Virus record (IMG/VR): IMGVR_UViG_3300013094_000317
Coordinates: 1 to 21,737 of that record
Origin: a virus
Reading direction: 5' to 3' (one strand)
DNA: 21,737 nucleotides
Shown here: one piece after another, positions 600-21,737 of the stretch
Position numbering within the stretch: position 1 is the first letter of the stretch
Layout of the letters: every line of letters begins with the position of its first letter
Program-made: the position numbers and the translations under genes
Notes under the pieces: generated by a model
What the model saw: only the letters and a program-made list of their open reading frames with translations
Told to the model about the DNA's origin: nothing
The model's database searches: none

Positions 600-603
600 C
601 TTT

Positions 604-607
604 GAGG
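604..607 (+). promoter_or_regulatory. Ribosome binding site fixing the gp6-like start
   Basis: GAGG sits six bases before ATG 614 and gives a clean Shine-Dalgarno arrangement. It rules out the in-frame TTG at 602, which would place the ribosome binding site inside the gene and add the non-family residues MRFK. Confidence 0.7.
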
Positions 608-613
608 TTTAAA

Positions 614-4006: not shown

Positions 4007-7000
4007 ATGGCAAAGCGTAAAAGTGTAAACTTTTTACCACAGGTTTTTAACACTCTTTCTAATAAAAGATTTTTAAATGCTACTATGGACCCACTAATTC
4101 AGGAACCAAGCCTGAAAAAGATGTATGGTTATATTGGTCAGCAAGATCAAAGCCCTGTTTATACTACTGGTGACTATTATATTAATGAAGGCGACAGTTA
4201 CAGCCAGTTCTATCAGTTAGAACCAGGCGTTGTTATTAATAAGCGTCAGTTGGGAACAAATACCTATAAAGTAAACAATGTTTATAGCTATGTTGATATC
4301 CTAAATCAGATTAGTGCTGATGGTGGCATTAACAATAATCATGATCGTCTTTTTACTAATCGTTATTATAGCTATAACGGATTCGTAGACCTTGATAAGC
4401 TAACAAATTATCGTCAATATTATTGGGTTCCTGGTGGACCGTTGACTGTTGATGTTACTGCCGATACTGTAACAACTCAACAAGATTTCTATATTCATCG
4501 TAATAGTTATATCGCCAATAATGAAACAGAATTGCAAAGTGCCGCACTTGGTGAAACTGGTTATAGCGTAGATGGATATAATAATGTCATCAATCCTACT
4601 TTAACATTAATTCGTGGTGGAAGTTATAATTTCCATGTTAATCAAGGCACACAGTTTTGGATTCAAACTGAAACTGGAACAAGTGGCGAAAGCAGTGTTC
4701 AGAACAATATTTCTACTCGTGATGTTATGGGTGTTTCTAATAATGGTGATGAAAGTGGTATTGTAACATTTACTGTTCCACTAAGCACTGCACAAGATTA
4801 TTTGATTAACTATCCAGCAATAACACAACAAGTAGATATTATTGTTGATGGAATTACATATGACCAACTTCAAGGTCAAAATTATGATACTTTTGTTCAA
4901 TCAAATAGTTTGGATGGCGTTCGTTCATTTGATGGCAAGTTTATAGTCTTTACAAGTTTAACTGGATTTACTGGCGTAGATAGTTCACAGTTTGGCGGTG
5001 TTTGGCAAATCAATGTTGATAATAATTCAACCTTGCCTGATATGGTTACTCCAAATCCAAATTACAGAAATATGAATTTAACTTATATCGCTCCTTGGGC
5101 AAACCTTTATAAAGTGTTTGTTGGGCAAGGCGATGTATACGGACATGTGTATGCTTACAAAAATAATGTTGGCGTAATCACAAAGTTCCCAACCCTAAGT
5201 GCTGCTCAAAGCGTTCTTTATTATGTTGATGCGACAAATCCACTTGTTTATGGTGAGATTCGTCTTGTTGATCCAACTCCCAATAGTTTGCTAAATGTAA
5301 CTGATATTATTGGTCGTGTAAATTATACTAGTCCAAATGGCGTTAAATTTTCAAGTGGATTAAAAGTTAAATTTACTGGTTTGGTTTTTCCTAGCGAATA
5401 TCAAAACAATGAATATATTGTTGAAGGCGTTGGCACTAGTATTAGTCTCATAAAATACAGTGATCTTGTTACGCCAGAAATTATCAACACTAATCTTGGA
5501 AGTTCGTTTGGCAACGGTCAAGGCTATGATGCTAATGGTTCAGGTTTTGATGGAACTTCCAATAGTCCAGAAGAAAAAGATTATGTTACTATCAATCGCG
5601 CAAGTGTTGATGGAAATGCATGGAGCCGTAACAATCGTTGGTTCCATCATGATGTTCTTCAATATGCTGCTGATTTTAACAATACTAATTATAGTTTTGA
5701 TTCTAATCAGCAAGCAAAGCGTCCTATTGTTGAATTTTTGCCTAATTTAAAACTTTTTAATTATGGTGTAAATTATCGTGGACCTGTTACTGTTATTGAT
5801 ACTACAACAACTGATGCTTTTTCACAAATTGAAGGTCAAAGTCCACAAGCAACATCAAAATATTATACTGATGGCATTCCACTGTTGAATAATAGCACTG
5901 TTGTGTTTACACAGGATACAAATCCAACAGTAAGAAATACTATCTATAAAGTTCAAAACAATAAAATTCATAGTTACAATAATTTTAATGTTAGAATTGT
6001 AGCATTTAGTGCCGCTGGCACAAATATCATTTATGTAAATGATTTAACTAATCTATATGTTGGATTAAAAGTTACTGCTGGTAGCAGTTGGACACAAAGT
6101 GCTATTCCTAACAATACCTATATTACAGCGATTGACGATATAACTGGTGCTATAACTTTAAGCAAAAATTTAACAGATAATATATCTCCATCTAGACTTA
6201 TTCCTGCTACAACTGCAATTGGTTCAACAGTAACTAATACACCATATTATAATGCGCAAAAATTAGTAACTGTTCCACTAAGCATTGGAATTAATACTTT
6301 TACTGTATATGATATAAGTTATCTTTCTGTTGGTCAATTAGTAACTGGAACTGGTGTTCCCAATAATACAACTATCACAAGTATCGTTGCACAATCTGAT
6401 CCATCAGGTGCTACTACTCCTTGGCAAATTACTGTTAGTAATAATTTCACTGTCAACGCAACAGAAACATTAACTATTGCTTCGGCTGGCGTTACTGGTA
6501 TAAGCACTGGTCAAATAGTAAACGATACAAATACTATTAATCCAGCTATTCCTGCTGGCACTGCCGTAGGCACAATCGTTGGTGGAAATATTCATCTTGG
6601 CGCAAATGCTACCTTAACTGAAAACAATGTTGTGTTTGCATTTAATAATCCTGTTGATACAACAGATTATACTGTATTGACATTTAGCAGCGACAGTTAC
6701 CAAATACATTTGGTTCCTTCTGGAACGGTAAACAATGGCGATACAGTCATTCCTATGGAAGGTGTTTCAAATCAAGGTAATATGTTCTATTATATTGATG
6801 GAACATGGAATCTAGCACAAGTTCGCAATAGTCGTCCGCAGTTCCCGCTATTTGATGTTATTGATAGCAATAGTTATAGTCTCGGTGACCATTCAGTATA
6901 TCCAAGCAGTAACTTCAAAGGCAGCAAGCTATTTGGCTATGCTATTGGAACTGGCACTCGTGATAGTGAGTTAGGTTTTCCACTAGTTTATAAGAGCATT

Positions 7001-10000
7001 GGTAATCTTGGCGATATTGTATTTCAAAATTACTATCAAACTGACTCATTTGATTATAACTTGAATCAAGTTGATACAATTAAGAATGTCAATATTGGTT
7101 ATGGCGCAATCATCAATAGCTATGATAATTATAATTTTGCCAATGGATGGTATAAAGTAGCTGATAAAAGCAAGCAATATATCACAAAAACTTTTAATGC
7201 AACAGATATATCCTTAAACAATTTTGATTTAAAAATTAAGTATGAGAACAGCTATTATGAAAACAATGTGTTTGTTTACATTAATGGCAAACTTCAAAAT
7301 CAAGACACTTATACTTTAAAAACTAATTCAACTACAAGCGTTGTTGTTCTTAATCAAGATTTAAATATTGGTGATCGTTTATTTGTTAAAATTTTCGGCA
7401 CAACTCCTCAGTATAAGCAAACTTATACTATGCCTAGAAATCTTACAAACAACAGTGATAATACTGAGTTTACCAGTATTACTCTTGGTCAATTACGCAA
7501 CCATCTTATTGAGATTGGCGATAATCTATTGAACCTTGTTGGTGAACCTGCTGGTTCTAACAACTTCCGTGACTTAAACTTCAATGATGTTGGCGGTAAA
7601 CTGCTGCAACATAGTGCAAGTTTAAGACCAGCCTCATTATTGTTAGCTAACAATGATGTTGATCCAGTTCAAATTATTCGTTATGCTGCGGATAGTTATA
7701 CAAACTTTAAGAGTCAACTTCTTGACTATATTAGCAATACTCAGTTCCCTGATCCTAACAATTATCGTGCAAGTTTAGATTTAATTCTATCACAATTTAC
7801 CGCAGTTGCAAATGGCGGTTCTCCATATTATTACACTGATATGGCTCCTAGTGGCACAAACTTTATCAAGAGCACTTATACTGTTCAGAATACAACTTAT
7901 CGCAGCTTTAACTTTACGCAAAGTTTTGCCGATAATATTAAGCAATATACTGCTGCAATGATTTATTTGAATGGCATTTTGCTTATCAAGAATCATGATT
8001 ATACTATCAATGACAAGGTTGTTACAATCTCGTCAACTGTTGCATTAAGTCGCGGCGATGTTATTGAAATCAATGAATATGCTAGCACTGTTGGATGTAA
8101 TATACCTGCAACTCCAACTAAGCTTGGTATCTATCCAAAATATGAACCACAAATTGTTACTGACGATACATATGTAACGCCAACCACTGGTATTATTGGG
8201 CATGATGGCAGCTTTACTGCTGCGTGGGGCGATTATCGTGATCATATTCTTCTTGAATTTGAAAAGCGTGTTTATAATAATATTACAACGACCTATGCTA
8301 ACAGCAGCGATACTGGCTTAAACAGTGTTATTCCTGGTGCTTTCCGTAAGACTGATTATTCAATTGATGAGTGGACTCAGCTACTTGCGCCAGCATTTCT
8401 TCGTTGGAGCAATATCAACAATGTTGATATCTTTACAAATAATACTGTAACAAACAATGAATTTACTTGGAATTATAGCAGCGGCACTGATAAACTATTC
8501 TTTAATAGTGTGCCTGGCAATTGGCGCGGTATCTACAATTATTTTTATGATACTGATAAGCCTCATACAAATCCTTGGGAAATGCTTGGCTTTGCTGAGC
8601 AACCATCTTGGTGGGAATTGCGTTATGGTCCAGCACCCTATACAAGTGCAAACAATGTTCTATGGTCTGATCTTGAATTAGGATTTATCTATGGCGGCAA
8701 TCCAAATGCAAGCTATATTGACAGTCGTTATAGCCGTCTTGGTCTAAGTCAAATCATTCCAGTTGATGAGCATGGCAATTTGCTATCTCCTAATTTCAGT
8801 GTAATTGGAAGCTTTGATGCTAATCTTGCAACACAAAATTGGCGAGTTGGTGATCAAGGTCCAGCAGAAACTGCATGGCGTCGTAGTGTAGATTATCCAT
8901 TCGCTGTTCAGATTGCATGGTTCCTTGCTCGTCCAGCAGAATGGGCTGCGTTAAACTATAATACTCGTGATTTAACTTATAACAGTACACTTGGTCAAAT
9001 TATTAACAGTAAATCAAATAGTCGTGTATTTGATTTCTCTGTGACATCTCCAAGTGATTATATTCCAGGTTACAATGTATGGTTAAGAGATTATCTTACA
9101 AGCAATAACTTAGATGTAACTGAAAACTGGCTTAATGTAGTTAATAACAGCACATTCAATCTTGTTTATAAGATGGGTGCATATACAGACAAGAGTTATC
9201 TAACTATTGTTGCTGACCAAGTTAGCCCACAAAGCACTAATAGTAGTGTGATTATTCCACAAGAAAACTATCGTGTTAAGGTTACTAAAAGTGCTCCTGT
9301 TGCTCGTGCAATTTATAGTGCAGTTGTTGTTCAAAAAACAACAGATGGTTATCAAATTACTGGTTTTGACAAAGAACGCCCATATTTCTTGACGATTCCA
9401 AGTCTTGTTAGCAGTAACAATTATGGTATCACTGTTGGAATTGATACTGCTGTTATCTATTTGGATGCGGCAGCAGGAATTGTTAGCTATCCATATGGAA
9501 CTATCTTTAATACAAAGCAACAAGTTGTTGACTTCTTAGTAAGTTATGGTCGTTATCTTGAATCACAAGGTTTCTCATTCCAAGAATTTTTGGGTGATAA
9601 CAATACTAAGCAAGATTGGACTCTTGCTGCAAAAGAATTTTTATTCTGGGATCAACAAGATTGGGGCAATAGCACAATTATTAGTTTAACTCCAACTGGA
9701 ACAAATATTAATTTTAATAGTTTATTTGGTTTAGTTGATACTATTTCTAATACCAATAACTATACTAAAATTATCAATAGTGATAATGTTACCCTAACTG
9801 GTCGTGATTATCGTGTATATCGTGAAGATAATAACTTCTCTGTAACATTGAAGAACGCTCAAAAAGGTATTCATTTATTAGATATTGCTGTTGTTCAATA
9901 TGAACATACTCTTATTTTTGATAATACTACTGTGTTCAATGATATTCTTTATGATGAACAAACTGGCAGTCGTCAGTTCCGTCTGCGCATTGACGGCAGC

Positions 10001-13000
10001 AAAACACAAGATTGGGATGGTTCACTTTATGCACCAGGTTTCTTTGTCAATATAAGCGATATTCCTGAATGGTCTGCTTATACAGATTATTATACTGGTG
10101 ATATTGTGCTATTCAAAACTCAGTATTTTGCTGCACAGAATTTTATTCCAGGCAGTGCTACATTCAAAAGCAGTGATTGGTATACAATTAATGGCAATTT
10201 GCTAGGTAAAGACCTTATTCCAAATATGGCAAGTGGGGCTGCTCAGTTTATTAATTTCCATGATCCAGATGCAACTGATCTTAACAGTGCCGCTGATGCA
10301 TTAAGCAAAAGCGAAACTGGATTTAGTCCTCGCCAATACTTTACTGATCTTGGTTTAGATACAACTACTCAATATAAGTTCTATCTTGGAATGATTGCGC
10401 AAAAAGGAACACAAGCTGTTCTTAATGCTTATCTTCGTAACAAACAGAAGCGTATTGACAGTGATATTACATTAAATGAACAGTGGGCAATTAAACTTGA
10501 CAACTATGGTGGAAATAATGATACTGACAAGTTAGAATTTAATATTGGTAATGCAATAGCTATCAATAGCCAATATCTATTTCAACTTATCAATGAAACT
10601 GATTCTCGTCCATTAGATTATAATGGCGTTAAACCAAGTGACTTGCTTTATAAGCCAAGAAAGTATAATACTGATATTTTCTCACTTGATTCTCCTCATA
10701 AGCAGATTATACCAACTGCTGGTCCAGTTAACACAAATGATGTTTCTGCAACAGTATTTGATATTTCTAAAATCTTTAATATTAGTGCACTTAACACTAT
10801 ATTGGGTGAAGGAAGTAAAATTTGGATTGCAGCAGATAGCAGCAATCAATGGGGAGTATATCGTTTAAGTCAAACTAACATTTTGGCAGTAACATATGTA
10901 AATCCAATAAGTCCAACTGAATTACAATTTACTACCAGCGCACCACATGGTTTAGCAAAGTATGATTATGTCATGCTTAAAAATGGACAATTGCTTAGTG
11001 CACAAAGCACAAGTGGCGTTGTTGACATGAGCGGATTTTATAGAGTATCCAGTGTTAGTGGCAATACATTTAATGTAAAGATTACTAATAATGTTAAAGT
11101 TGGAACTGGTAATCTAAAAGCATCTCTATTCAAACTTATCAATGTTCGTTATGCAACAAGCAATGATTTTGCTAACTTCACTCCTGTTCGCGGATGGAAT
11201 AGTAACGAAATTGTTTATATTGACAACGGACCAGATGGATATAATGTTCTACAAAATACAAATAATTGGGTATACAATCAAACTAAGAGTCCAGTGTTTA
11301 CCTCTCCAAGCGACAATTATGGCAGCAGTGTAAAGATTAATCACACTCAAGGTTTTGCCTTAGTTGGAGCAAATCAAAAAAATACTAGTGGTACTGCATT
11401 TGTTTATGGTAAAAACCAAGATAATACTTGGCAAGAATTTGGTGTATTGACACCAGATAGCCGTATTCGTGGTTTTGGTAGCAATGTAGATATCAATGTA
11501 AACAATATTGCCTTTATTAGTGCTCCAACTGGACAAAAAGGCGTTGTATATACAGCCAATGTTAATAGTCAACAGATTGCACTAAGCCAAGCTATTCACT
11601 ATGATAATCTTTATGCTATTAGTGCAGGATTCTCACAGTCAAACAATAATATACTTTTATCAACAGTCTTTAACTTTGACAGCACTGCTAATATTGCTGT
11701 TCAAGCAAGCTATAACTTAAGTAACTTTGCTGTTGGAATGGGCGTCGGTGGTGCTGGTATACCAAGTGGAACATATATTACTAGTATTACTCCAGTAGCA
11801 GCTACTAACACTATTGTTGTTAATAAGACTAACAGTGTTCATATTGGTGACACTGCTACAATCTTGCAATCTAACAGCAGTATTTTTACTACACTGTATG
11901 CAAATATTGCAAGTAGCAATGCTAATGTTTATATTGGCAATGTTGGACAATCTATTACTGGTGTTCTAGTAAACACCATGCCTGTATTGGGCAATGGTAT
12001 TCCAGTTGGAACATATATTACGAATATTAGTAATATTACTGGCTATAAAGTTCTTACACTAAGCAGCAATGTAACTATTCCAAGCGGAAATCTGCTCACT
12101 ATTGTTAATAACAATTCAAGTGTTATCCAAAGCGGCGTTACGAGTGTAACAACTACTGGTAACAATTACTTTATTATCAGTGGCGCTCAAAGCACTTATC
12201 TTATAGCAAATGGACAACCGATTGTTGGTTCTAACCTTGCTAATGGCACTGTTATTTCTAACCTTGCAATTGGACCAGCATTTAACATTCTTGGTGTTAA
12301 CAGCAATGTTAATTTAAGCAACAGTGAAAAGATTGCAATCTATCCAAATGTTCAACCAACAAGTAATTTTGGTTATAGCATTAGTGCAAGTGGCGATGGA
12401 AAATGGTTATATGTTGGTGAACCAGTTACTAACAGTGTTTATGTTTACGAGTATGCAAATCTTGCAACAAGCACATCAACTCGCATAGGCGATGGACATA
12501 CAACAAGTTTCTCATATCCAATCGGCGCTCCTTCAACTGCTAGTGCAAATGATATTAAAGTTTATGTTAGTGGAGTCTTAAAGGTTCCAAACCTAGATTA
12601 TATCAAGACGCCAGGTCAAACTGTTATTACATTTGATAATCCACCAGCAGCCAATGCAGCAATCTTAATAAGCTATGAAAGTCATTATGTTGAAACAAAT
12701 CGCATTGTGACCGATGATCCACAAGCTAGCATGTTTGGTGCAAGTGTAAGCACAAACTATGATGGCAGTGTGGTTGTAATTGGTGCCGCAAACAGTGCAG
12801 CAACATTCAGCACAACTTTCAGCAATGCAGGCAAAACTTATATCTATGACCGCACTGCTGAAATCTTTACTGCTGATGGCTCAACATCAACATTCCAATT
12901 AAGTAATGCGTTTGCTAACCTAACAACTATCACTACTCCTACTTTGGTGACCAATCCTGCTGTTACAGTTGATGGAATTGACGATACTGCAAATGCAACT

Positions 13001-16000
13001 TTCAATTTAGTTGCTAATCAAGTGACATTGGCAACTGCGCCACAAAGTGGCAGCATTGTTCGTGTTGAAACAAATCAGTTTATCAATACAAAAATTGCTA
13101 CAACTGATGTTGGTCAGCAAAATAGTAACTATGGAACTGCTGTTAAAGTATCTAATGATGGCAGCAGCGCATTTTCATCTGCAACTGGTTATGGATTAAC
13201 AAGCAGTCAAAATGGTGTGATATTCTATCTAAAAAATATCCCACAGCAATATGGTACCGCTATTGGAACACAGTCAAACTTTACAATGATTGCCAATAAT
13301 GCTGTTCGTATTAATGATTATCTTGTTACCTTTACTGGTGGCAGTGTTCAGCAAACCGTAACAGATATTAACAATGTTAATATTCCATATGTAACCGCAA
13401 GTGTTCTTGCTAATAATGCCATTTCTATTTCATCAAGCGATACTGTAAGTGCAGTAAAACTTCGCTTGCGCAATGAAGTAGGTAACCCATTGACCTTAAT
13501 GGGCATTACTCAGTGGCAAACTATTCAACGCTTGAATAATCCACTTGCACAAGATACTGCGCACTTTGGTGAAATTTTAAGTCTAAGTGCAGATAGCAAT
13601 ACTCTTGTTGTTGGAAGCACTCTAAGCAATACCAAGACACGAGTAACATTTGATAAGGCAATAACAACTTTTGATGGTGCTGGTCTGCGATTTATTGACA
13701 CAGTTTATCAAAGCGGTGCCGCTCATGTTTATGAATATCAAGCTGTTACTGATGAAAACTATGCAAGCTATGGCAATTTTGCTTATGCAACTCTCTTAAA
13801 TGATCAGTTTGCTAAGAGTTATGATCGCTATGGAAGCGGCATTGATATCAGTGATAACTTTATCATGGTTGGTGCTCCTCATGCAAATATTCTTAATAAT
13901 GCTACTGGCGCAATGTATGTTTATTATAATCAAAATGCTCAACCAGTATGGCAAAGTATTCGCAGCGGCGGCGTAGATTATGATAGTCGTAAGGTTAATC
14001 GTGTATATCTATACAATAGCACTACTGCAAAACTTATCGCTGACTTGCCAGTATATGATTTAATCAATGGATTCTTGCCTAATGAAAGCGAAAGTTATAT
14101 TGATTTTGTCATTAACTATGATCCAGCAGTTTATAACAAAGTGCCTACTAATGTTAGCTTCTCTTATGATCGTAAAAACGCATGGGGCAAAGAAAAATTA
14201 GGAAAACTTTGGTGGGATACTAATAGTATAAAGTATTATGATAATACTCAGGGCAAAATCATTGATAGATTTAACTATTGGGGACTTGCTTTCCCAGGCA
14301 GTAAAGTAAATGTTTATGAATGGATTGAAAGTCTTGTTCCTCCAAGTCAATATGTTGGAAGCAATGCTAACAATGTTCCGCTTTATACTATCAATGATGT
14401 TTATACTAGCGCCGTTGAAATCGACAGTGGAACTGGACAAGCTGTTACGAAATATTATTTCTGGGTCAAGAATAGTACTTTAACTAATGCTATTCGTCCA
14501 AGTGCACTAGAAATTCAAGGCTATCTAACTGTGCCTCGCGCAAGCAGCGAACCATTTGCTGCTGTTATTAGCCAGGATTCTATTGCTGTATTTGGTGCTT
14601 CAAACTTAATAAGCGTTGATACAAATCTTGCGATTGAATACAAAGATGTGTTAAAGCCACAGTTAGTTCATAGTGAATGGACTATGTTTGATGATGGCAG
14701 CGATCTTGGTGTTGCAGATGAGTTCTTGAATAAACTAAGTGACAGTTTAACAGGTCAAGATGTCAGCGGAAGAATTGTTCCAGACCCAGCATTGCCAATA
14801 GGACAAAAATATGGCATGAGTGTTATGCCTCGTCAAAGCCTATTCAATAAACAATTTACTGGTCGTAAATTGTTTATTGAAAATATCAATCAAGTATGCC
14901 AAACATTTCCTATGGCGTTGACTCGTGGAGATGTAGTAGCTGCATTGAATCATTTTGATCCACTGCCTAATTCATCACAATATAAAAAATCAGTTGCCAA
15001 TATAACTGAGTTAGGTTATCTTGACAAGAATGTATATCAAGCTGGCGATGTTGTTTTAGTTATAAACGATAGCAATAATTATACAAATGGTTGGAGTCTA
15101 TATCAACTTAATGTAGTGTTTCCAAATACAAGAACTTGGGAACTTGTGCAAGTTCAAACTTACAATGTAAACAGCTATTGGACTTATACTAATTGGTATA
15201 GCACAAAGTATAATGCTTCAATTCAGCCAACTCATACAGTGTCAACTGAAAATGACATTGCCAATCTAACGCTTAATGTTAATGATATTATCTATGTCAC
15301 TAATAGCACTGCTGGCGGTTGGAAGTTGGTATTGGTCAACTCAAATAACTTAGAATTGCTTGCACAAGAAAATGCTACGATTCAATTTACTAACAGCTTA
15401 TATGATCTTGTGGCTGCAAATCAAGGTTTTCAAACTAGCAGCTTCCAAAATGTAGGATTTGATGCTGATAGTAATCTTGAATTTAGCTATATCTTTGGTG
15501 TGATCAAAGACAAAATGTTGATCAATGAATATCGTCCTAACTTTAAAGCAGCGATCAAGTTGATGATTGATACTATTGCAACTCAACATCAGCAAACAGA
15601 TTGGATGATGAAGACTTCATTTGTTGATATCTATCATCGTGTTCGTGGACTAGATCAACTACCAGTTTATCTGCCACAGCCAGAATCTACTGTTACTAGT
15701 TTCTTTGCAGAAGTTAAACCTTATCATACAAAACTTAAACAGTATATTGCTATCTATGATAATAACAATGCAATTGATTATGCTTATGCAAGTGCAACTG
15801 ACTTTGATTTGCAACCATATAAGAACAGCATCATTAACAAATATCGCAGTCCACAACTTGGCAATAGCCTTGATACAACTGCATTGAGTTCACAGGCAGT
15901 TTATCAGCCATGGGTTAACAATCATACATATAGCGTTAAGTTCGTTGGTATAACCAATGGTGGCACTGGATATGATGGCACTACAACTGTTACTATTATT

Positions 16001-19000
16001 GGTGACGGAACTGGTGCAACTGCAACAGCATATATTGTTAATGGTTCAGTTAATAATATCCTAGTTACAAATCCAGGCACTGGATATACATATGCAACAG
16101 CATATATCTATGGAATTGGAACTGGCGCAAGCGCAACTGTTATTGTAGGCAATGGACTTGCTCGTAATTTCAATACATATATTAAGTATGATCGTTATAC
16201 ATACTTCAATAATATTCAAGATTGGTCTTCAAATACTGTTTATACAACAGATACAGTTGTAGTATATAAAACAGAACCATATCGTGTAACTGTTGCTCAC
16301 ACTAGCGGAACCACATTTGATGCAACTAAGTTTGTTGCGCTTGCGGTAAAAGTTTGGTATCCAGAAACAAGCTATGCAATCAATGATATTGTAATTTATC
16401 AAAATACCAGTTATGTTGCAACTCAAAACTTTACAAGTGGTGTCAATTTTGATAGCACTGTAAACAATTATAGTTTACAATATTGGAATCCAAATACAAG
16501 TTATACTACTAATAATATAGTGTTTAATTCCAATAATTACTATTCTCCTCGTGCAAATTACACAAGTAATAGTGATATCAATGGAGACATTTATAACAGT
16601 TTATTCGTAACTGTTTCTACAACTGCATCTAATTATGTTATAACTGTTACCAATATAAATGGTATAGCAGTTGGACAGTATGTAACTGGTGCGGGTGTAG
16701 TCGGCGGAAGCCAAGTAACTGCCATAAGCGGTAATAGCGTAACTTTAAGTGCGCCAGCTACTTCAACAGGAACAAATGTTATCATATTCTATACTGGTAA
16801 TCTACAACTTACTACTGTTAATCTTGTGCCATATACTGGCATGTGGCTTGACAATGCATGTGATCGTGTATGGGCATATTATTCTCCAATGTCTGGTATG
16901 GTTGGTCGCGATCTTGCTCAGGTTATGACAGGTATTGAATATAGTGGCAACCAAGTTGTTGGTCCAACATTTACACAAACACCTGGCTATGATGTTAACA
17001 ACTATGATTATATTGCATATGATTATGAAACATTCGATGCTGAAAATGTTGCTGATACCTATGGACCACAAGCAGAAGATACATATATTCAAAGTTTCTT
17101 TACCGATAGTGGATTAGGATTACGCCCACAAGATATCAATATTGTTGGCGGAGACTTCTATGATGTATACAGCAGCCATGCCCCAGAAGAGTTTATTCCT
17201 GGTCAAGTATTGGATACTGTGGATATTAAGGTTAAAACCCTACCAATTACTAATGGCGGTCCAGATATTAAAATCTTTACAGTAAATTATATTGGATCAC
17301 AAACATTTAGCTTTGATCCTAATGTTACCAATGTTTCTTATCCAGTTGGTGGCATAGAAAAGTTCTATATTGTTGATTCAACTATCGGTCCTATTGCTGA
17401 AACATTGAATTACACTGTAAATTATCAAACAAAAACAATTACTGTAAACTATATTCCACAAAACGGTACATATTTTTATGTTATGATGATTGGTGCCAAT
17501 GGCGTGAATCCAGTATATGACCAAGATTTTTATGCCGATGGCGTTCAAACTGATTTCGATATACCTGACTTTACAACATCAACTGTTGGACAAGCATATG
17601 TCAAGGTCAATGGTGCAGTTGTAACTAATTGGAGTTTGGTAAACAAATTGGAAAATGGTAATACTGTATTGGCTGTAAGATTTACAGTTGCTCCTGCTGC
17701 AAATGCATTTGTTCAGGTTCATCTTTTCAATGTTGCAGTCGGAACTCGTGCGTATAGCGAATGGTATGAACAATCATTCTCTATTCCAGTTGCAAGTTAT
17801 CCAACTGGTTACACCTTCACTCTTACAAATCCAGAAATCTACAATGAACCTATTAGCAGTTATGCAATTGTAAGATTGAATGGCAGTGATTTGTTGCCTC
17901 CGCAACAAAGCTATTATATTGGCGATGGAACTACTGCAAACTTCAGTATGACCAATACTTGGGTAGAAACTATTGCCAATATTGTTGATCCTGAAACTAT
18001 TGTATTGGTCAATGGAGTAGTTAAAACAAATAATATTGATTATACCATTTATCATGATCCATTAAACATGGCAATGCCTGTTGTTCAATTTACAGTTGCT
18101 CCGCCAAGCGGAAGCACTATTGTAATCAGTGACAGCAGTCAAAGCGATTTCAAGATTTATAATGGTAATCAACTTGTGCTAAGACCAAATGTTGTTATTG
18201 CTAACAATAGCACACTAACTGTATTAACACAAGGCAATCATAACTCAAATAATCAATATACTAAGTTGTTCAGTGGCAGCACAAGCAATACTAGTGTTGT
18301 TGATAACGGTCTTGATACAACTGGATTTGATGCAGTTGGTCTTGATGCTGAGTATAGTAACTTTATCAGTGGTGTTTATTATACATTACCAAATGCTGTA
18401 ACTAATATCAATGAAATATATATTACACTAAGAAATACTGGAATGACTGGCGGTATCACCCTATTGCCATATCGTGACTTTATTCTTGGCACACCAACTA
18501 CTATATTGCTTAATTCGTTGTTGAATGTAAGTGCGACCAGTGTTATTACAGTTCGTATATTTGGAACACCAGTGCGTGAACATACAGTAGAGTTCCGCAT
18601 ATTCAAGGATATGCGTGATAATACTCGTTACTATGCTCTTCGTTCTATCCAAACTTCTCTCACAGCTAACTTGGCTCCAAGTGATCAATGGATATATGTT
18701 GGGGATGCAAGTGTTCTACAAAGTCCACAATTGAATACAAATAATGCTGGCATTATCTTTATCAATGGTGAGCGTATTGCTTATGGCGTAGTTGATTCAA
18801 TTAACAATCGTTTAGGTCAACTGCGTCGTGGTATTAGTGGAACAGGAACACCAACCCTTCATCAGAAGGGAACTCTTGTTAGCGACAATGGAAGCACACT
18901 AGAAATTCCAAATAGTCGAGATACATATAATACAGTTTCTGCAAATACCTATATAACTGGTGCGCCAAGCATTAAGTTTATTACCGCTAACTCATATAGT

Positions 19001-19327
19001 GGTTCTAGCGTTATTTCAGTGACCGATGTTAACAATATCGCAGTAAATCAGCTAGTATTTGCTGGTATTAGTGGAGTAATTCCTGCTAATACAACAGTAA
19101 CTAACATATATAAAGGTAATAATGCAGTTAGCCTAAGTGCAAATCTAACAGCTAATCTAACTACTAATTCAGTTGGAAACTTGTTGATAAGCAATAGTGT
19201 ATCATTCGTTACTAATATTCTAGTAACTGCTAATAGCACTATTAAACAAGGCATAGTGTTTACTAATCCAGGTGAAAGTATACAGACTAGTTCAACAAGT
19301 TATGCACAATTTATTAGGGCGCAGTAA
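4007..19327 (+). CDS. Giant modular baseplate/tail structural protein (5,106 aa), in the gp7 position
   Basis: This is one uninterrupted frame with a good AGGGA site at 3993-3997. I recognise the backbone as an uncharacterised family of giant structural proteins in environmental T4-like phages. Conserved blocks: 1-145 (starts MAKRKSVNFLPQVFNT; YYSYNGFVDLDKL, QYYWVPGGP), 890-1010 (GFPLVYKSIGNLGDIVF), 1146-1240, 1378-1646 (PGNWRGIYNYFYDT, PSWWELRYGPAPYT, YPFAVQIAWFLARPAEW), 2095-2168, 3400-3452 (KLWWD, EWIESLVPPSQY), 3545-3617 (EWTMFDDG, MPRQSLF), 3800-3915 (VKPYHTKLKQY) and 4275-4413 (CDRVWAYY, SHAPEEFIPGQ). Inserted modules: cupredoxin-like at 196-275; G-I-P modules at 680-880, 2577-2780, 4221-4260 and near 5013; CBM5/12-like at 2022, 4073, 4117 and 4160; an FG-GAP-like propeller at 2436-3310; GGTGY repeats at 3985-4045; an INGERIAYG module near 4919. 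There is no signal peptide or membrane segment. The position after gp6 suggests a gp7-like wedge role, but I see no direct gp7 similarity. Confidence 0.9.
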   Translation: MAKRKSVNFLPQVFNTLSNKRFLNATMDPLIQEPSLKKMYGYIGQQDQSPVYTTGDYYINEGDSYSQFYQLEPGVVINKRQLGTNTYKVNNVYSYVDILNQISADGGINNNHDRLFTNRYYSYNGFVDLDKLTNYRQYYWVPGGPLTVDVTADTVTTQQDFYIHRNSYIANNETELQSAALGETGYSVDGYNNVINPTLTLIRGGSYNFHVNQGTQFWIQTETGTSGESSVQNNISTRDVMGVSNNGDESGIVTFTVPLSTAQDYLINYPAITQQVDIIVDGITYDQLQGQNYDTFVQSNSLDGVRSFDGKFIVFTSLTGFTGVDSSQFGGVWQINVDNNSTLPDMVTPNPNYRNMNLTYIAPWANLYKVFVGQGDVYGHVYAYKNNVGVITKFPTLSAAQSVLYYVDATNPLVYGEIRLVDPTPNSLLNVTDIIGRVNYTSPNGVKFSSGLKVKFTGLVFPSEYQNNEYIVEGVGTSISLIKYSDLVTPEIINTNLGSSFGNGQGYDANGSGFDGTSNSPEEKDYVTINRASVDGNAWSRNNRWFHHDVLQYAADFNNTNYSFDSNQQAKRPIVEFLPNLKLFNYGVNYRGPVTVIDTTTTDAFSQIEGQSPQATSKYYTDGIPLLNNSTVVFTQDTNPTVRNTIYKVQNNKIHSYNNFNVRIVAFSAAGTNIIYVNDLTNLYVGLKVTAGSSWTQSAIPNNTYITAIDDITGAITLSKNLTDNISPSRLIPATTAIGSTVTNTPYYNAQKLVTVPLSIGINTFTVYDISYLSVGQLVTGTGVPNNTTITSIVAQSDPSGATTPWQITVSNNFTVNATETLTIASAGVTGISTGQIVNDTNTINPAIPAGTAVGTIVGGNIHLGANATLTENNVVFAFNNPVDTTDYTVLTFSSDSYQIHLVPSGTVNNGDTVIPMEGVSNQGNMFYYIDGTWNLAQVRNSRPQFPLFDVIDSNSYSLGDHSVYPSSNFKGSKLFGYAIGTGTRDSELGFPLVYKSIGNLGDIVFQNYYQTDSFDYNLNQVDTIKNVNIGYGAIINSYDNYNFANGWYKVADKSKQYITKTFNATDISLNNFDLKIKYENSYYENNVFVYINGKLQNQDTYTLKTNSTTSVVVLNQDLNIGDRLFVKIFGTTPQYKQTYTMPRNLTNNSDNTEFTSITLGQLRNHLIEIGDNLLNLVGEPAGSNNFRDLNFNDVGGKLLQHSASLRPASLLLANNDVDPVQIIRYAADSYTNFKSQLLDYISNTQFPDPNNYRASLDLILSQFTAVANGGSPYYYTDMAPSGTNFIKSTYTVQNTTYRSFNFTQSFADNIKQYTAAMIYLNGILLIKNHDYTINDKVVTISSTVALSRGDVIEINEYASTVGCNIPATPTKLGIYPKYEPQIVTDDTYVTPTTGIIGHDGSFTAAWGDYRDHILLEFEKRVYNNITTTYANSSDTGLNSVIPGAFRKTDYSIDEWTQLLAPAFLRWSNINNVDIFTNNTVTNNEFTWNYSSGTDKLFFNSVPGNWRGIYNYFYDTDKPHTNPWEMLGFAEQPSWWELRYGPAPYTSANNVLWSDLELGFIYGGNPNASYIDSRYSRLGLSQIIPVDEHGNLLSPNFSVIGSFDANLATQNWRVGDQGPAETAWRRSVDYPFAVQIAWFLARPAEWAALNYNTRDLTYNSTLGQIINSKSNSRVFDFSVTSPSDYIPGYNVWLRDYLTSNNLDVTENWLNVVNNSTFNLVYKMGAYTDKSYLTIVADQVSPQSTNSSVIIPQENYRVKVTKSAPVARAIYSAVVVQKTTDGYQITGFDKERPYFLTIPSLVSSNNYGITVGIDTAVIYLDAAAGIVSYPYGTIFNTKQQVVDFLVSYGRYLESQGFSFQEFLGDNNTKQDWTLAAKEFLFWDQQDWGNSTIISLTPTGTNINFNSLFGLVDTISNTNNYTKIINSDNVTLTGRDYRVYREDNNFSVTLKNAQKGIHLLDIAVVQYEHTLIFDNTTVFNDILYDEQTGSRQFRLRIDGSKTQDWDGSLYAPGFFVNISDIPEWSAYTDYYTGDIVLFKTQYFAAQNFIPGSATFKSSDWYTINGNLLGKDLIPNMASGAAQFINFHDPDATDLNSAADALSKSETGFSPRQYFTDLGLDTTTQYKFYLGMIAQKGTQAVLNAYLRNKQKRIDSDITLNEQWAIKLDNYGGNNDTDKLEFNIGNAIAINSQYLFQLINETDSRPLDYNGVKPSDLLYKPRKYNTDIFSLDSPHKQIIPTAGPVNTNDVSATVFDISKIFNISALNTILGEGSKIWIAADSSNQWGVYRLSQTNILAVTYVNPISPTELQFTTSAPHGLAKYDYVMLKNGQLLSAQSTSGVVDMSGFYRVSSVSGNTFNVKITNNVKVGTGNLKASLFKLINVRYATSNDFANFTPVRGWNSNEIVYIDNGPDGYNVLQNTNNWVYNQTKSPVFTSPSDNYGSSVKINHTQGFALVGANQKNTSGTAFVYGKNQDNTWQEFGVLTPDSRIRGFGSNVDINVNNIAFISAPTGQKGVVYTANVNSQQIALSQAIHYDNLYAISAGFSQSNNNILLSTVFNFDSTANIAVQASYNLSNFAVGMGVGGAGIPSGTYITSITPVAATNTIVVNKTNSVHIGDTATILQSNSSIFTTLYANIASSNANVYIGNVGQSITGVLVNTMPVLGNGIPVGTYITNISNITGYKVLTLSSNVTIPSGNLLTIVNNNSSVIQSGVTSVTTTGNNYFIISGAQSTYLIANGQPIVGSNLANGTVISNLAIGPAFNILGVNSNVNLSNSEKIAIYPNVQPTSNFGYSISASGDGKWLYVGEPVTNSVYVYEYANLATSTSTRIGDGHTTSFSYPIGAPSTASANDIKVYVSGVLKVPNLDYIKTPGQTVITFDNPPAANAAILISYESHYVETNRIVTDDPQASMFGASVSTNYDGSVVVIGAANSAATFSTTFSNAGKTYIYDRTAEIFTADGSTSTFQLSNAFANLTTITTPTLVTNPAVTVDGIDDTANATFNLVANQVTLATAPQSGSIVRVETNQFINTKIATTDVGQQNSNYGTAVKVSNDGSSAFSSATGYGLTSSQNGVIFYLKNIPQQYGTAIGTQSNFTMIANNAVRINDYLVTFTGGSVQQTVTDINNVNIPYVTASVLANNAISISSSDTVSAVKLRLRNEVGNPLTLMGITQWQTIQRLNNPLAQDTAHFGEILSLSADSNTLVVGSTLSNTKTRVTFDKAITTFDGAGLRFIDTVYQSGAAHVYEYQAVTDENYASYGNFAYATLLNDQFAKSYDRYGSGIDISDNFIMVGAPHANILNNATGAMYVYYNQNAQPVWQSIRSGGVDYDSRKVNRVYLYNSTTAKLIADLPVYDLINGFLPNESESYIDFVINYDPAVYNKVPTNVSFSYDRKNAWGKEKLGKLWWDTNSIKYYDNTQGKIIDRFNYWGLAFPGSKVNVYEWIESLVPPSQYVGSNANNVPLYTINDVYTSAVEIDSGTGQAVTKYYFWVKNSTLTNAIRPSALEIQGYLTVPRASSEPFAAVISQDSIAVFGASNLISVDTNLAIEYKDVLKPQLVHSEWTMFDDGSDLGVADEFLNKLSDSLTGQDVSGRIVPDPALPIGQKYGMSVMPRQSLFNKQFTGRKLFIENINQVCQTFPMALTRGDVVAALNHFDPLPNSSQYKKSVANITELGYLDKNVYQAGDVVLVINDSNNYTNGWSLYQLNVVFPNTRTWELVQVQTYNVNSYWTYTNWYSTKYNASIQPTHTVSTENDIANLTLNVNDIIYVTNSTAGGWKLVLVNSNNLELLAQENATIQFTNSLYDLVAANQGFQTSSFQNVGFDADSNLEFSYIFGVIKDKMLINEYRPNFKAAIKLMIDTIATQHQQTDWMMKTSFVDIYHRVRGLDQLPVYLPQPESTVTSFFAEVKPYHTKLKQYIAIYDNNNAIDYAYASATDFDLQPYKNSIINKYRSPQLGNSLDTTALSSQAVYQPWVNNHTYSVKFVGITNGGTGYDGTTTVTIIGDGTGATATAYIVNGSVNNILVTNPGTGYTYATAYIYGIGTGASATVIVGNGLARNFNTYIKYDRYTYFNNIQDWSSNTVYTTDTVVVYKTEPYRVTVAHTSGTTFDATKFVALAVKVWYPETSYAINDIVIYQNTSYVATQNFTSGVNFDSTVNNYSLQYWNPNTSYTTNNIVFNSNNYYSPRANYTSNSDINGDIYNSLFVTVSTTASNYVITVTNINGIAVGQYVTGAGVVGGSQVTAISGNSVTLSAPATSTGTNVIIFYTGNLQLTTVNLVPYTGMWLDNACDRVWAYYSPMSGMVGRDLAQVMTGIEYSGNQVVGPTFTQTPGYDVNNYDYIAYDYETFDAENVADTYGPQAEDTYIQSFFTDSGLGLRPQDINIVGGDFYDVYSSHAPEEFIPGQVLDTVDIKVKTLPITNGGPDIKIFTVNYIGSQTFSFDPNVTNVSYPVGGIEKFYIVDSTIGPIAETLNYTVNYQTKTITVNYIPQNGTYFYVMMIGANGVNPVYDQDFYADGVQTDFDIPDFTTSTVGQAYVKVNGAVVTNWSLVNKLENGNTVLAVRFTVAPAANAFVQVHLFNVAVGTRAYSEWYEQSFSIPVASYPTGYTFTLTNPEIYNEPISSYAIVRLNGSDLLPPQQSYYIGDGTTANFSMTNTWVETIANIVDPETIVLVNGVVKTNNIDYTIYHDPLNMAMPVVQFTVAPPSGSTIVISDSSQSDFKIYNGNQLVLRPNVVIANNSTLTVLTQGNHNSNNQYTKLFSGSTSNTSVVDNGLDTTGFDAVGLDAEYSNFISGVYYTLPNAVTNINEIYITLRNTGMTGGITLLPYRDFILGTPTTILLNSLLNVSATSVITVRIFGTPVREHTVEFRIFKDMRDNTRYYALRSIQTSLTANLAPSDQWIYVGDASVLQSPQLNTNNAGIIFINGERIAYGVVDSINNRLGQLRRGISGTGTPTLHQKGTLVSDNGSTLEIPNSRDTYNTVSANTYITGAPSIKFITANSYSGSSVISVTDVNNIAVNQLVFAGISGVIPANTTVTNIYKGNNAVSLSANLTANLTTNSVGNLLISNSVSFVTNILVTANSTIKQGIVFTNPGESIQTSSTSYAQFIRAQ
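4592..4831 (+). other. Cupredoxin-like beta domain without copper ligands (inside the giant protein)
   Basis: Residues about 196-275 run NPTLTLIRGGSYNFHVNQG, then FWIQTE, a Ser/Gly-rich loop, GVSNNGDESGIVTFTVP and finally LINYPAI. The order (Leu/Arg strand, FWIQ strand, a G-V-x-N-N-G turn and a TFTVP strand) is the pattern of cupredoxin-like domains often found in environmental phage structural proteins. The usual terminal Cys/His cluster is absent, so a structural rather than copper-binding role is likely. The call is by pattern only. Confidence 0.45.
6049..6650 (+). repeat. Three adjacent G-I-P-x-x-T beta modules (inside the giant protein)
   Basis: Residues about 681-881 hold three degenerate copies of one module. 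The markers are VGLKVTAG with IPNNTYITAI and ITLSKNLT; VGQLVTGTGVPNNTTITSI; and TGQIVNDT with IPAGTAVGTI. Each copy has a Gly-x-x-Val strand, a G-x-G-I/V-P turn, a T-x-I-T-x-I strand and a Leu-Ser or similar closing strand. The repetition is at protein level; I see no long DNA identity between copies. Confidence 0.6.
11312..13936 (+). repeat. Seven FG-GAP-like repeats, candidate seven-bladed beta-propeller (inside the giant protein)
   Basis: Residues about 2436-3310 contain seven repeats that start with an aromatic-Gly pair and continue into a hydrophobic strand, often S-x-D-G or equivalent, an L-x-V-G-x-x strand and a closing strand with an aromatic-V/I-Y type ending. Starts: YG at 2438 (closing TAFVYGKN), FG at 2490 (GVVYTANV), FG at 2788 (GKWLYVGEP, SVYVYEY), FG at 2910 (SVVVIGAAN, KTYIYDR), YG at 3042 (GVIFYL), FG at 3187 (NTLVVGST, AHVYEYQ) and YG at 3275 (FIMVGAPH, AMYVYYN). 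Seven is the number needed to close an integrin-type propeller. Long insertions separate several blades, especially blades 2 and 3. Confidence 0.65.
11730..12345 (+). repeat. Three G-I-P modules inserted between propeller blades 2 and 3
   Basis: Residues about 2575-2780 carry three copies of the same module seen at 681-881 of this protein: GAGIPSGTYITSI, GNGIPVGTYITNI with LTLSSNVTIPSGN, and ANGQPIVGSNLANGTVISNL. The first two share the DNA string GGAACATATATTAC, so part of the array may be a relatively recent duplication. Confidence 0.6.
15940..16160 (+). repeat. Paired GGTGY beta module (inside the giant protein)
   Basis: Residues 3985-4045 contain GGTGYDGTTTVTIIGDGTGA followed by ATAYIVNGSVNNILVTNPG, then TGYTYATAYIYGIGTGASA. 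This is the two-part G-x-G-Y, V-x-I-x-G-x-G-x-G-A, V-x-x-I-x-V-T-N-x-G pattern common in phage fibre and adhesin-like proteins. The function is unknown. It sits directly before the CBM-like segments. Confidence 0.55.
16205..16600 (+). repeat. Three tandem CBM5/12-like segments (inside the giant protein)
   Basis: Three consecutive segments follow the plan W-x(4)-Tyr-x(3)-Asp/Asn-x-Val-x-Tyr/Phe-x(3)-Tyr. They begin at W4073 (WSSNTVYTTDTVVVYKTEPY), W4117 (WYPETSYAINDIVIYQNTSY) and W4160 (WNPNTSYTTNNIVFNSNNYY). A fourth, isolated copy is at W2022 (WSAYTDYYTGDIVLFKTQYF). The pattern is that of small chitin/cellulose-binding type modules (CBM5/12) often used in phage tails. Sugar binding is inference. 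Confidence 0.6.
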
Positions 19328-20007
19328 TGAAAAAACCAGAGATAATTAAACCAATAAATACTAATAACAATAAAAGTGGAAATGAAAAGATGAGTCGTCC
19401 TAATGAGACAGGTGGAATTGCCCTAAGTGGTCATATTAAGATTTTTGATCCTAATAGTGGAGAAGTATTTGTAAACAAGCGCAACGCCATTCATTATGAA
19501 AATTTCTCACTTGGTCTTGCGCAAAGTATTAGTAATAGCCAACAGGGTTGGATTAGTGAAATGGCATTTGGTAACGGCGGAACATCCGTTGATCCAACTG
19601 GTGTTATCACATATCTACCAACAAATACAACTGGTAGTAACAGTTCTCTTTATAATCAAACCTATTACAAGGTTGTAGACAATTATAGTAACTATAATAC
19701 TGATCCAACTCGTAACAATATTAGTATTCGTCATACCGCTGGTACTGTTTATAGTGATATCTTTGTTACTTGTACGCTAGATTATGGCGAACCAAGTGGT
19801 CAGCAAGCATTTGATAATAGCACAAATATTAATGATACATTTGTATTTGACGAACTTGGTCTCAAAGCATGGAACGGCACCGTTGATACTGGTAACTTGT
19901 TAACTCATGTTATCTTCCATCCGATCCAGAAAAGTCTTAATCGTTTGATTCAAATTGATTATACTATTCGTGTTCAGACTTTAACTAACTTAACATCACA
20001 GGTATAA
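19327..20007 (+). CDS. Small conserved virion-type structural protein of unknown function
   Basis: The product is 226 residues from ATG 19327, whose A is the last base of the giant gene's TAA stop (TAATG overlap). AGGG lies seven bases upstream. A second in-frame ATG at 19390 gives a 205-residue protein starting MSRPNETGG. That start may be the native one: the 21 residues before it are Lys/Asn-rich, relatives I recall begin near the ETGG motif, and a late-promoter-like octamer lies between the two starts. Conserved-looking parts are SGHIKIFDPNSGEVFVNKRN, AIHYENFS, MAFGNGGTSVDPTG, CTLDYGEPSGQ, FVFDELGLKAW and THVIFHPIQKSLNRLIQIDY. I know this pattern from uncharacterised T4-like environmental phage proteins. 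Its place between the giant baseplate protein and the fibres suggests a baseplate or fibre-attachment role, but no fold can be named. Confidence 0.85.
   Translation: MKKPEIIKPINTNNNKSGNEKMSRPNETGGIALSGHIKIFDPNSGEVFVNKRNAIHYENFSLGLAQSISNSQQGWISEMAFGNGGTSVDPTGVITYLPTNTTGSNSSLYNQTYYKVVDNYSNYNTDPTRNNISIRHTAGTVYSDIFVTCTLDYGEPSGQQAFDNSTNINDTFVFDELGLKAWNGTVDTGNLLTHVIFHPIQKSLNRLIQIDYTIRVQTLTNLTSQV
19353..19360 (+). promoter_or_regulatory. Candidate T4-type late promoter inside the 5' end of the small structural gene
   Basis: AATAAATA (7/8 to TATAAATA) sits in the ten-base string CCAATAAATA, which recurs exactly at 20968-20977. It is 29 bases before the alternative ATG 19390 and downstream of ATG 19327. 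If it is active, its transcripts could only use the later start. Confidence 0.4.
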
Positions 20008-20010
20008 CCA

Positions 20011-20967
20011 ATGACATTTTATATTAACTATACCAACGGTGCAAATTTAACAGCTATCAGTGATGGTACAATCAATAATACTAGCACTAGTCTTACTCTT
20101 ATTGGAAAGAACTTTCCAACATATGGACAGTTGCTAAACCAAGACCTTGTTAGTATGTTAGAAAATTTTTCTAATATAACAAGTCCAAGCAATCCACTTG
20201 TTGGACAACTTTGGTATGATAGCGGCAATAATCTGCTAAAATATTATCGTGCGGGTGCTTCAAGTAATTATTGGCAAACTATTACTAATTTAATTTATAA
20301 TGCTACAACTCCAACTAGTCCACAACAAAGTGATTTCTGGTGGGATGCCACTAATCAACAGTTAAAATTCTTTGACCAATTAAACTGGATTACTGTTGGT
20401 CCACAAACTGCCAATGATGGGTTAAATCGTGTTAGTGGAACAAACAGTTTCATCGTTCAGATTGGCGGTAACAATGTATTCACTGTTGATGCCTATGGTC
20501 GAGTAAATGCAGCTTATAATCCTGTTGTTCAAATGATTGGAGCAACAAGTTCTTTTTCTAGCAGTGGTATTGGATCACCAACTACATTTGCTAGCAGCAC
20601 ACCTGCTACTATTAATATTGGAAGTTATTTTAACACAGCAACTGGTATTTTCACATGCCCAGTGGCGGGAATTTACCAAGTAGGCGCAAGTGTTTCAACT
20701 ATTGGTAATCCAAGTAGTCCAAACAGTCAGCTTAACACAAAGATAAGTTGGTGGAAAAACCAAAGTGACAGCGGTATTCTAAGTGCAGCGATTACTGAAA
20801 ATGTTGTAACAAGCGGCGGCGGAAGCGTTAGCACAAAAATTCCGCTTAATGCATCTGGATATCTACAATGTAATGCGGGTGATATCTTGCAATGTGTATG
20901 GTATGGTGATGTTGGTGACCAAGTTGATAATTCTACTGTAAACCTGAGTATCAGATTAGTTGGATAA
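20011..20967 (+). CDS. Tail fibre protein with WWD-type N-terminus and C1q-like C-terminal domain
   Basis: The product is 318 residues, with AGG eight bases before the ATG and the upstream stop only three bases away. Residues 1-95 form a domain common in T4-like environmental phage fibres: LIGKNFPTYGQLLNQDL, MLENFSN, NPLVGQLWYDSGNNLLKYY. A second short copy of its hairpin follows at about 108-132 (DFWWDATNQQLKFFDQLNW). The C-terminal part, about 172-318, reads like a C1q/TNF-type jelly roll: YFNTATGIFTCPVAGIYQVG (206-225), a SWWKNQ strand, then LNASGYLQCNAGDILQCVWY and a final strand NLSIRLVG at the very end. C1q-like domains are usually trimeric and bind ligands, so this could be a receptor-binding tip. 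The N-terminal domain is related to that of the next gene. Fibre assignment is by homology pattern; the host receptor is unknown. Confidence 0.85.
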   Translation: MTFYINYTNGANLTAISDGTINNTSTSLTLIGKNFPTYGQLLNQDLVSMLENFSNITSPSNPLVGQLWYDSGNNLLKYYRAGASSNYWQTITNLIYNATTPTSPQQSDFWWDATNQQLKFFDQLNWITVGPQTANDGLNRVSGTNSFIVQIGGNNVFTVDAYGRVNAAYNPVVQMIGATSSFSSSGIGSPTTFASSTPATINIGSYFNTATGIFTCPVAGIYQVGASVSTIGNPSSPNSQLNTKISWWKNQSDSGILSAAITENVVTSGGGSVSTKIPLNASGYLQCNAGDILQCVWYGDVGDQVDNSTVNLSIRLVG

Positions 20968-20969
20968 CC

Positions 20970-20977
20970 AATAAATA
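20970..20977 (+). promoter_or_regulatory. Candidate T4-type late promoter ahead of the second fibre gene
   Basis: AATAAATA lies in the 29-base gap between the two fibre genes, 19 bases before ATG 20997, and matches TATAAATA at seven of eight positions. The surrounding CCAATAAATA is identical to 19351-19360. This is the best placed of the three candidates because it is fully intergenic and followed by a good GGGA ribosome site at 20986-20989. Confidence 0.5.
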
Positions 20978-20996
20978 ATAGTGTTGGGAATCAGCT

Positions 20997-21737
20997 ATGA
21001 CTTATAGTGTTAAAAATAGTGCAGGTACAGTTACATATACAGTTGCCGATGGAGCAGCTAATATCAATGCTATAAGTTTGACTTTTATGGGCAAGGGTGA
21101 AACCAATTATGGCACATACCTTAACCAGAACTTTCTTTGGCTTTTAGAAAATTTCAGTAATAACAGCAGCAATCCCCCTGCATTTCCTGTGCAAGGTCAG
21201 TTATGGTGGGATAGCACCTATAAATTTTTAAATGTTTATGATGGAACAAAGTGGAACACTGTTTATGGCAATCTTGCTACGCTAACTGTTAACGGTGCAG
21301 TATCATTTAGTTCAGTAAGTGCTGGCACAATTGGTAATACTGGTGCTAAACTAACTGGTCTTATAACAACAAATGCACAACCTTATATCACAAGTGTTGG
21401 AACACTCACTGGATTAACAAGTGCTGGTTTATCAAGTAGTGCTACAATTACTGCGCCTGTGTTAGGCAATACAGGTGCCAACCTTATTGGCACAATCAAT
21501 ACAAATGCACAGCCATATGTTACAAGCGTTGGCACATTATCTTCACTAACAGCAAGTGGAACCACTAATTTACAAGGCACAACTAATGGTGCCACTATTA
21601 ATGCAACTAATCTTTATGCTACAACTATTGGTAATAGCGGTTCGACATATACTGGTTCAAGTATTACTCTTACTGGTAATACTAGTATTCAGGTCAATGC
21701 AGGTTCACTTGGAACTACAAGTGGCAATCAATTGGTA
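20997..21737 (+). CDS. Repeat-containing tail fibre protein, N-terminal part (runs off the window)
   Basis: The ATG at 20997 has GGGA seven bases upstream, and the frame is open for 247 codons to the window edge. Residues 1-90 match the N-terminal domain of the preceding fibre: SLTFMGKGETNYGTYLNQNF, LLENFSN and PVQGQLWWDSTYKFLNVYDG, ending KWNTVYG. They are followed by a Ser/Thr/Gly/Asn-rich shaft with two 44-residue repeats containing NAQPYITSVGTLTGLT and NAQPYVTSVGTLSSLT. The repeat is a familiar element of marine phage fibre shafts and usually precedes a receptor-binding or chaperone domain, here beyond the window. This is likely a distal or short tail fibre. The end of the gene cannot be seen, so length and tip are unknown. 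Confidence 0.85.
   Translation, partial: MTYSVKNSAGTVTYTVADGAANINAISLTFMGKGETNYGTYLNQNFLWLLENFSNNSSNPPAFPVQGQLWWDSTYKFLNVYDGTKWNTVYGNLATLTVNGAVSFSSVSAGTIGNTGAKLTGLITTNAQPYITSVGTLTGLTSAGLSSSATITAPVLGNTGANLIGTINTNAQPYVTSVGTLSSLTASGTTNLQGTTNGATINATNLYATTIGNSGSTYTGSSITLTGNTSIQVNAGSLGTTSGNQLV
21333..21596 (+). repeat. Two tandem 132-base (44-residue) fibre repeats
   Basis: Unit 1 is 21333-21464 and unit 2 is 21465-21596. Both begin with a G-N-T-G-A-x-L sequence and carry NAQPY(I/V)TSVGTL at the same offset (AATGCACA at 21372 and 21504). The period is exactly 132 bases. DNA identity is partial, with many third-base changes, so the protein repeat is what is conserved. Confidence 0.8.

Follow-up and report, generated by a model that had tools for sequence, protein, structure and literature searches.

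Beta-propellers in phage baseplates and FG-GAP proteins in jumbo phages are both already known, separately. The phiKZ protein gp131C is a seven-bladed propeller at the periphery of the baseplate; its function is unproven, and a receptor-binding or enzymatic role has been proposed (PMC4901313). The receptor-binding protein (RBP) of the Staphylococcus aureus phage phi11 is trimeric and has a five-bladed platform with a putative N-acetylglucosamine (GlcNAc) pocket (PMC4901313). The phiKZ gp131 propeller raised the still unanswered question of what such domains do in a baseplate. The DNA analyzed here (the window) is a viral stretch of 21,737 nucleotides, positions 1 to 21,737 of the IMG/VR record IMGVR_UViG_3300013094_000317. 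It encodes a giant structural protein of 5106 amino acids (aa) in an open reading frame (ORF) at 4007-19327, on the plus strand as are all features given below. Residues 2436-3325 of this protein (11312-13981) are predicted to form, together with several inserts, a seven-bladed propeller of the integrin-alpha/FG-GAP type, which is supported by Pfam FG-GAP_2 matches, AlphaFold2 (AF2) models, the family alignment and profile comparisons. We give a probability of roughly 0.6 to the reading that this is one closed seven-bladed FG-GAP propeller, carried as an optional insertion in a virion protein at the gp7 position, which serves with its inserts as a rigid baseplate platform. The open-access literature, to which the search was limited, yielded no paper that brings FG-GAP, beta-propeller, phage and baseplate together.

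The original prediction had placed seven [FY]-G starts at residues 2438, 2490, 2788, 2910, 3042, 3187 and 3275, and these positions are exact. Each start leads into a hydrophobic-G-[ASTE] strand and then a later aromatic/V-Y strand (FVYGK, VVYTAN, VYVYEY, TYIYDR, IFYLKN, HVYEY and MYVYY). A composite pattern, [FY]Gxx[VILM] followed after 6-14 residues by [GS][AEST][PANT], hits only these seven sites in the 5106 aa. Shuffling gives a mean of 0.145 sites for the segment (maximum 3, n=2000) and of 0.53 for the whole protein (maximum 3). Since the pattern was devised after the motifs were seen, the independent evidence for seven is the family. Exactly seven motifs occur in 51 of 124 distinct relatives, none has more than seven and the rest have fewer, as counted in the segments between conserved anchors with a hidden Markov model (HMM) that was deliberately narrow and whose training included the seven sites of the window. 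Relatives at about 25-30% identity have seven motifs at corresponding places, and it is the conservation of the number across relatives that makes seven convincing. Taken singly, the motifs of the window are weak: an HMM built from distant relatives only scores three of the seven sites above 0 bits, and no site outside the segment. Pfam bears out the FG-GAP assignment of the original prediction: the score of PF14312 (FG-GAP_2) is 50 bits (E=3.5e-13; gathering cut-off 23 bits), with three stretches of the region significant individually and one single repeat reaching 28.4 bits alone. The integrin-type calcium motif (DxDxDG, searched as D-x-[DN]-x-[DN]-G) was not found anywhere in the giant protein.

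The insert-free fold was modelled on a natural relative (L163), rather than on the window sequence with its inserts deleted. The AF2 model of this compact propeller has a predicted local distance difference test score (pLDDT) of 81.5, a predicted template modelling score (pTM) of 0.85 and 28 main strands, which is seven times four. A Foldseek search of the PDB with this model returns 1377 hits with E<=0.001, led by integrin alphaM (7usm, E=1.9e-11); next are seven-bladed WD40 rings with template modelling (TM) scores on target length of up to 0.79. The sequence profile of the compact propellers also matches integrin alpha-4 (E=9.5e-8) and alpha-M (E=5e-6). The beta-propeller proposed at the outset is therefore supported by the fold and by the sequence profile of the relative. 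Relatives with inserts match the compact family profile end to end over 459 columns (E=3e-44), and the window group matches it in blades 4-7 (E=8.7e-36) and in blades 1-2 (P=97.7%). In the family alignment (A2), intermediates from further scans set blade 3 right, which an earlier alignment (A1) had misaligned owing to the large insert of the window. PDB searches with the window region as a single sequence and with the profile of its close group alone gave no match, so the integrin link appears only through more distant relatives. The AF2 model of the window itself (952 residues, pLDDT 74, pTM 0.75) has a four-strand unit behind each of the seven FG; the blades are confident and a 253-aa insert is partly poor. 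The best viral match of this model is an uncultured Caudovirales protein (E=1.5e-26).

The predicted blades and inserts can be placed along the region. Blade 1 (YG 2438, 11312-11458) has four AF2 strands at model residues 54-97 and blade 2 (FG 2490, 11468-11599) has its strands at model residues 109-147; both have a profile match to the compact propellers. The 253-aa insert (11600-12358) follows, as suggested by the spacing and by low-confidence stretches in the model; the spacing of blades 2 and 3 is 297 in the window versus 54-71 in most others. This insert contains recurring segments of the 'G-x-GIP-x-GT-x-I' type, and it is common to the close group of the window and missing or shorter in more distant relatives. 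Inserts in the C-D loop are present in blade 3 (FG 2788, 12359-12724; insert 12458-12682), blade 4 (FG 2910, 12725-13102; insert 12875-13054) and blade 5 (YG 3042, 13121-13546; insert 13238-13513). Blade 3 is placed by AF2 and Pfam, and blades 4 and 5, like blade 6 (FG 3187, 13556-13813), by AF2 and profile alignment. The insert of blade 3 has a sub-threshold, DUF2460-like match. Blade 7 (YG 3275, 13820-13981) is placed by Pfam and AF2 and has the strongest FG-GAP_2 match. Four insert domains interrupt the core: the first separates blades 2 and 3, and blades 3, 4 and 5 each contain another. Once these are removed the core has 382 residues, the same as a natural bare propeller. In the AF2 strand order the 253-aa insert comes after strand 4 of blade 2, and the inserts of blades 3-5 come between strands 3 and 4. 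By the usual propeller topology these two insert-bearing loop classes would point to opposite faces. The B-C loop of blade 6 (strands 2-3) has an FD-x(n)-FD element (13628-13711), identified by a loose pattern and in alignment A2. By the loose pattern this element occurs in 149 of 171 distinct propeller-bearing relatives and is the sole loop that recurs family-wide; its two Asp are invariant in alignment A2, and the loop is poorly modelled in L163 (residues 329-353).

That the giant protein carries the propeller as an optional, inserted domain is strongly supported. Four scans of viral contigs gave 276 loci with flanks, some contigs being retrieved more than once. Since the contigs of relatives reach 364 kb, this is a jumbo-phage family. 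The span from anchor to anchor is about 100 aa in a relative with no propeller (L020), 382-389 aa in three with a bare propeller (L163, L153 and L155) and up to 1230 aa in others; in several relatives the site is nearly empty, with 3-17 aa separating the anchors. The propeller is present in 48 of 72 distinct proteins of a RaK2-anchored survey and absent from 24; this survey covers the best 80 loci and is not an unbiased frequency. The FG motif was not found in RaK2 gp70 (3326 aa) or in Salicola SCTP-2 gp140 (3807 aa), both of which retain the downstream anchor. A LamG-like domain at the site in SCTP-2 was considered and is unsupported by Pfam and PDB searches. In Pfam, two propeller-less relatives have a GDSL lipase/acylhydrolase domain shortly upstream of the site (L020, E=1.1e-14; L166, E=3.5e-11; loci L020:12503-14635 and L166:8003-10153), and no clear replacement domain was found in other propeller-less relatives. 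Searched with just the propeller, a collection of cultured phages held no match with E<=0.01 and, at a relaxed limit, distant FG-GAP proteins only. No relative turned up among the cellular genome contigs scanned. Since RaK2-like laboratory phages are without the propeller, their structures will not reveal it.

Purifying selection acts on the propeller core much as it does on the flanks, which sets the core apart from a hypervariable receptor-binding tip. The pairwise ratio of nonsynonymous to synonymous substitution rates (dN/dS) in three comparisons is 0.12, 0.09 and 0.18 for the blade core versus 0.06, 0.14 and 0.16 for the N flank. The value for the inserts is similar or slightly higher, and no sign of diversifying selection was found in the pairwise comparisons. 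With the core so close to the flanks, a conserved platform is the better fit and a hypervariable recognition tip the poorer one; the low dN/dS is also compatible with possible contact with a receptor that is itself conserved.

The giant ORF lies directly after a gp25-like baseplate wedge gene (167-568; PF04965, E=1.9e-8; PHROG 261) and a gp6-like baseplate wedge gene (602-4003; PHROG 10646, E=1.8e-279; PHROG 219, E=2.7e-16), as T4 gp7 does, and is followed by fibre-like genes (19327-21737). PHROG 10938 ('virion structural protein') matches the ORF before and after the propeller (E=1.2e-73, 8.3e-165 and 4.3e-44) and skips the propeller region, with profile positions up to 1461 and then from 1876. 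The virion mass spectrometry of phage phAPEC6 includes a 381.88-kDa protein whose gene adjoins the wedge gene (PMC7247149); it was taken as a homologue of the giant protein by size and position. The PHROG name, the RaK2 synteny and this mass spectrometry suggest that the giant protein is in the virion. Pfam places CBM_5_12 carbohydrate-binding-like modules C-terminal to the propeller, the better of the two at 16223-16312 (PF02839, E=4.1e-7), and these modules keep carbohydrate contact plausible.

The giant protein and its surroundings also have several other features. A segment of about 75 aa, 'VG-x(2,4)-V-x-G-x-GIP-x-GT-x-I-x-I', has about three copies in the insert between blades 2 and 3 (11600-12358) and by eye is also present elsewhere in the giant ORF, near residues 665-830, 4275-4330 and 5010-5060. 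Self-BLAST picked up none of these copies and showed no significant internal repeats. NCBIfam gave no match. The family includes an open frame longer than that of the window, of 5720 aa from stop to stop (L148, ORF from 56). In a relative that is 97% identical (L002, about 7692-9624) the giant gene is in two overlapping frames of 644 and 4484 aa; the split is near window residue 620 and is either a frameshift or an assembly error. At its C terminus the downstream fibre-like protein (20011-20964) has a match to PF00386 (C1q-like, E=3.9e-5) that only narrowly passes the cut-off.

In the proposed role, the giant protein would be present in several copies in the baseplate, perhaps one per wedge, i.e. 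six. The propeller would form a rigid, disc-shaped platform on the baseplate. One face would bear the 253-aa insert and the conserved FD-FD loop, the opposite face the beta-rich insert domains of blades 3-5. This platform would brace or present adjoining baseplate or fibre parts, and the inserts may touch the cell envelope. Several points weigh against the proposal. The original prediction looked to models with and without the insertions. The insert-free relative gives the seven-bladed fold; the window model, with its four-strand unit behind each motif, superposes poorly as a whole on PDB propellers (TM<=0.23). The poor superposition is attributed to the inserts, and therefore closure is shown directly for the compact relative only. 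The baseplate assignment made in the original prediction is probable from gene order, RaK2 synteny and the phAPEC6 mass spectrometry, but a search of the PDB with the N-flank profile (E<=5) found neither T4 gp7 nor another baseplate protein, which leaves gene order as the basis of the gp7 position. The platform role itself is drawn from constraint and anatomy only.

It is possible, but clearly less probable than the platform, that the propeller makes contact with the host or with carbohydrate, as the original prediction suggested. The propeller itself, or its inserts, would then attach to a glycan or protein of the cell surface and provide the baseplate with a secondary receptor-binding element. 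Propellers do occur in phage receptor-binding proteins, as with phi11 RBP and phiKZ gp131C (PMC4901313), and host contact would also fit the CBM_5_12 modules, the GDSL hydrolase domain just upstream in two propeller-less relatives and the variation of insert size between lineages. However, both core and inserts are under purifying selection near the level of the flanks, no binding residue was identified, the integrin-type calcium motif is absent and many relatives have no propeller. A function closer to that of the integrin alpha head is unlikely; here the blade 2-3 insert and the FD-FD loop would build a ligand-binding face for one particular partner, from the host or from the virion, and inserts exchanged between lineages would set the specificity. 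If true, the phage baseplate would have an adhesin with the architecture of an integrin, one that was acquired, or that evolved, independently of those of animals.

The propeller might instead be a neutral, tolerated insertion, gained once at a permissive loop and persisting with no specific role. The nearly empty site in several relatives and the tendency of the giant proteins of this family to collect repeated beta modules would agree with this. It is nevertheless quite improbable, since the conserved seven, the conserved FD-FD loop and a dN/dS of about 0.1 point to a maintained function, and most of the sampled relatives carry the propeller. That there is no propeller, and the repeats are unrelated beta repeats starting with FG by chance, is hardly credible. 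Only three repeats pass Pfam individually and the inserts are large, but the AF2 models, the Foldseek and integrin profile matches and the conserved seven oppose this explanation, and the compact homologue already contradicts it. The rigid platform stays the preferred reading.

Among known systems, phiKZ gp131 (PDB 4GBF) is the closest precedent. It also has a seven-bladed propeller in a jumbo-phage baseplate; its propeller is C-terminal, whereas that of the window is a nested insertion. 4GBF is not among the compact-profile matches at E<=1, therefore gp131 is apparently another propeller family. The phi11 RBP is likewise an example of a propeller used as a platform in a phage baseplate, but it is a five-bladed, trimeric RBP of a different family. 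RaK2 gp70 (PHROG 10938) has a homologous backbone on either side of the site and a gene that is likewise behind a wedge protein; unlike the window protein it has only 3326 aa and no propeller at the site. Free-standing FG-GAP proteins of the jumbo phages Atu_ph07 and Phosso are separate proteins outside the baseplate giant protein, with only marginal sequence similarity to a compact propeller of the family (E 3e-4 to 4e-4). The 'streptococcal hemagglutinin protein' of Agrobacterium phage Atu_ph07 (L280:3905-5086) is a 393-aa FG-GAP_2 protein (E=5.3e-18), about one propeller in size. For a 3693-aa 'hypothetical protein' of Sinorhizobium phage Phosso (L284:4015-12882), 2956 residues were examined; they contain at least 19 FG-GAP_2 stretches (E=3.9e-175), which probably form several propellers in tandem. 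The 'tail protein' of Synechococcus phage S-CAM1 (L283:9867-20948, 3693 aa) was considered as a further FG-GAP relative, and the match is spurious; residues 229-327 match the phycobilisome family PF00502 (E=2.6e-14).

The integrin alpha head is alike in its seven FG-GAP-like repeats, its seven blades, its profile similarity and its place as the best PDB fold match. In integrins, an alpha-I domain is inserted between blades 2 and 3, and an insertion is possible at the same place in the window, where it has 253 aa. This shared site is regarded as a coincidence, since the distant relatives are without the insert. The window also differs from the integrin head in that it has no DxDxDG loops, its insert is unrelated to the I domain, additional domains lie within blades 3-5 and the whole is part of a phage virion protein. 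Among uncultured jumbo phages, the integrin-type FG-GAP propeller predicted here would be widespread in a giant protein of the baseplate region, where it is nested as an optional domain that can be modified. Its alleles in nature range from an empty site through the bare propeller to one with inserts, and they are a ready series for testing the role of baseplate propellers.

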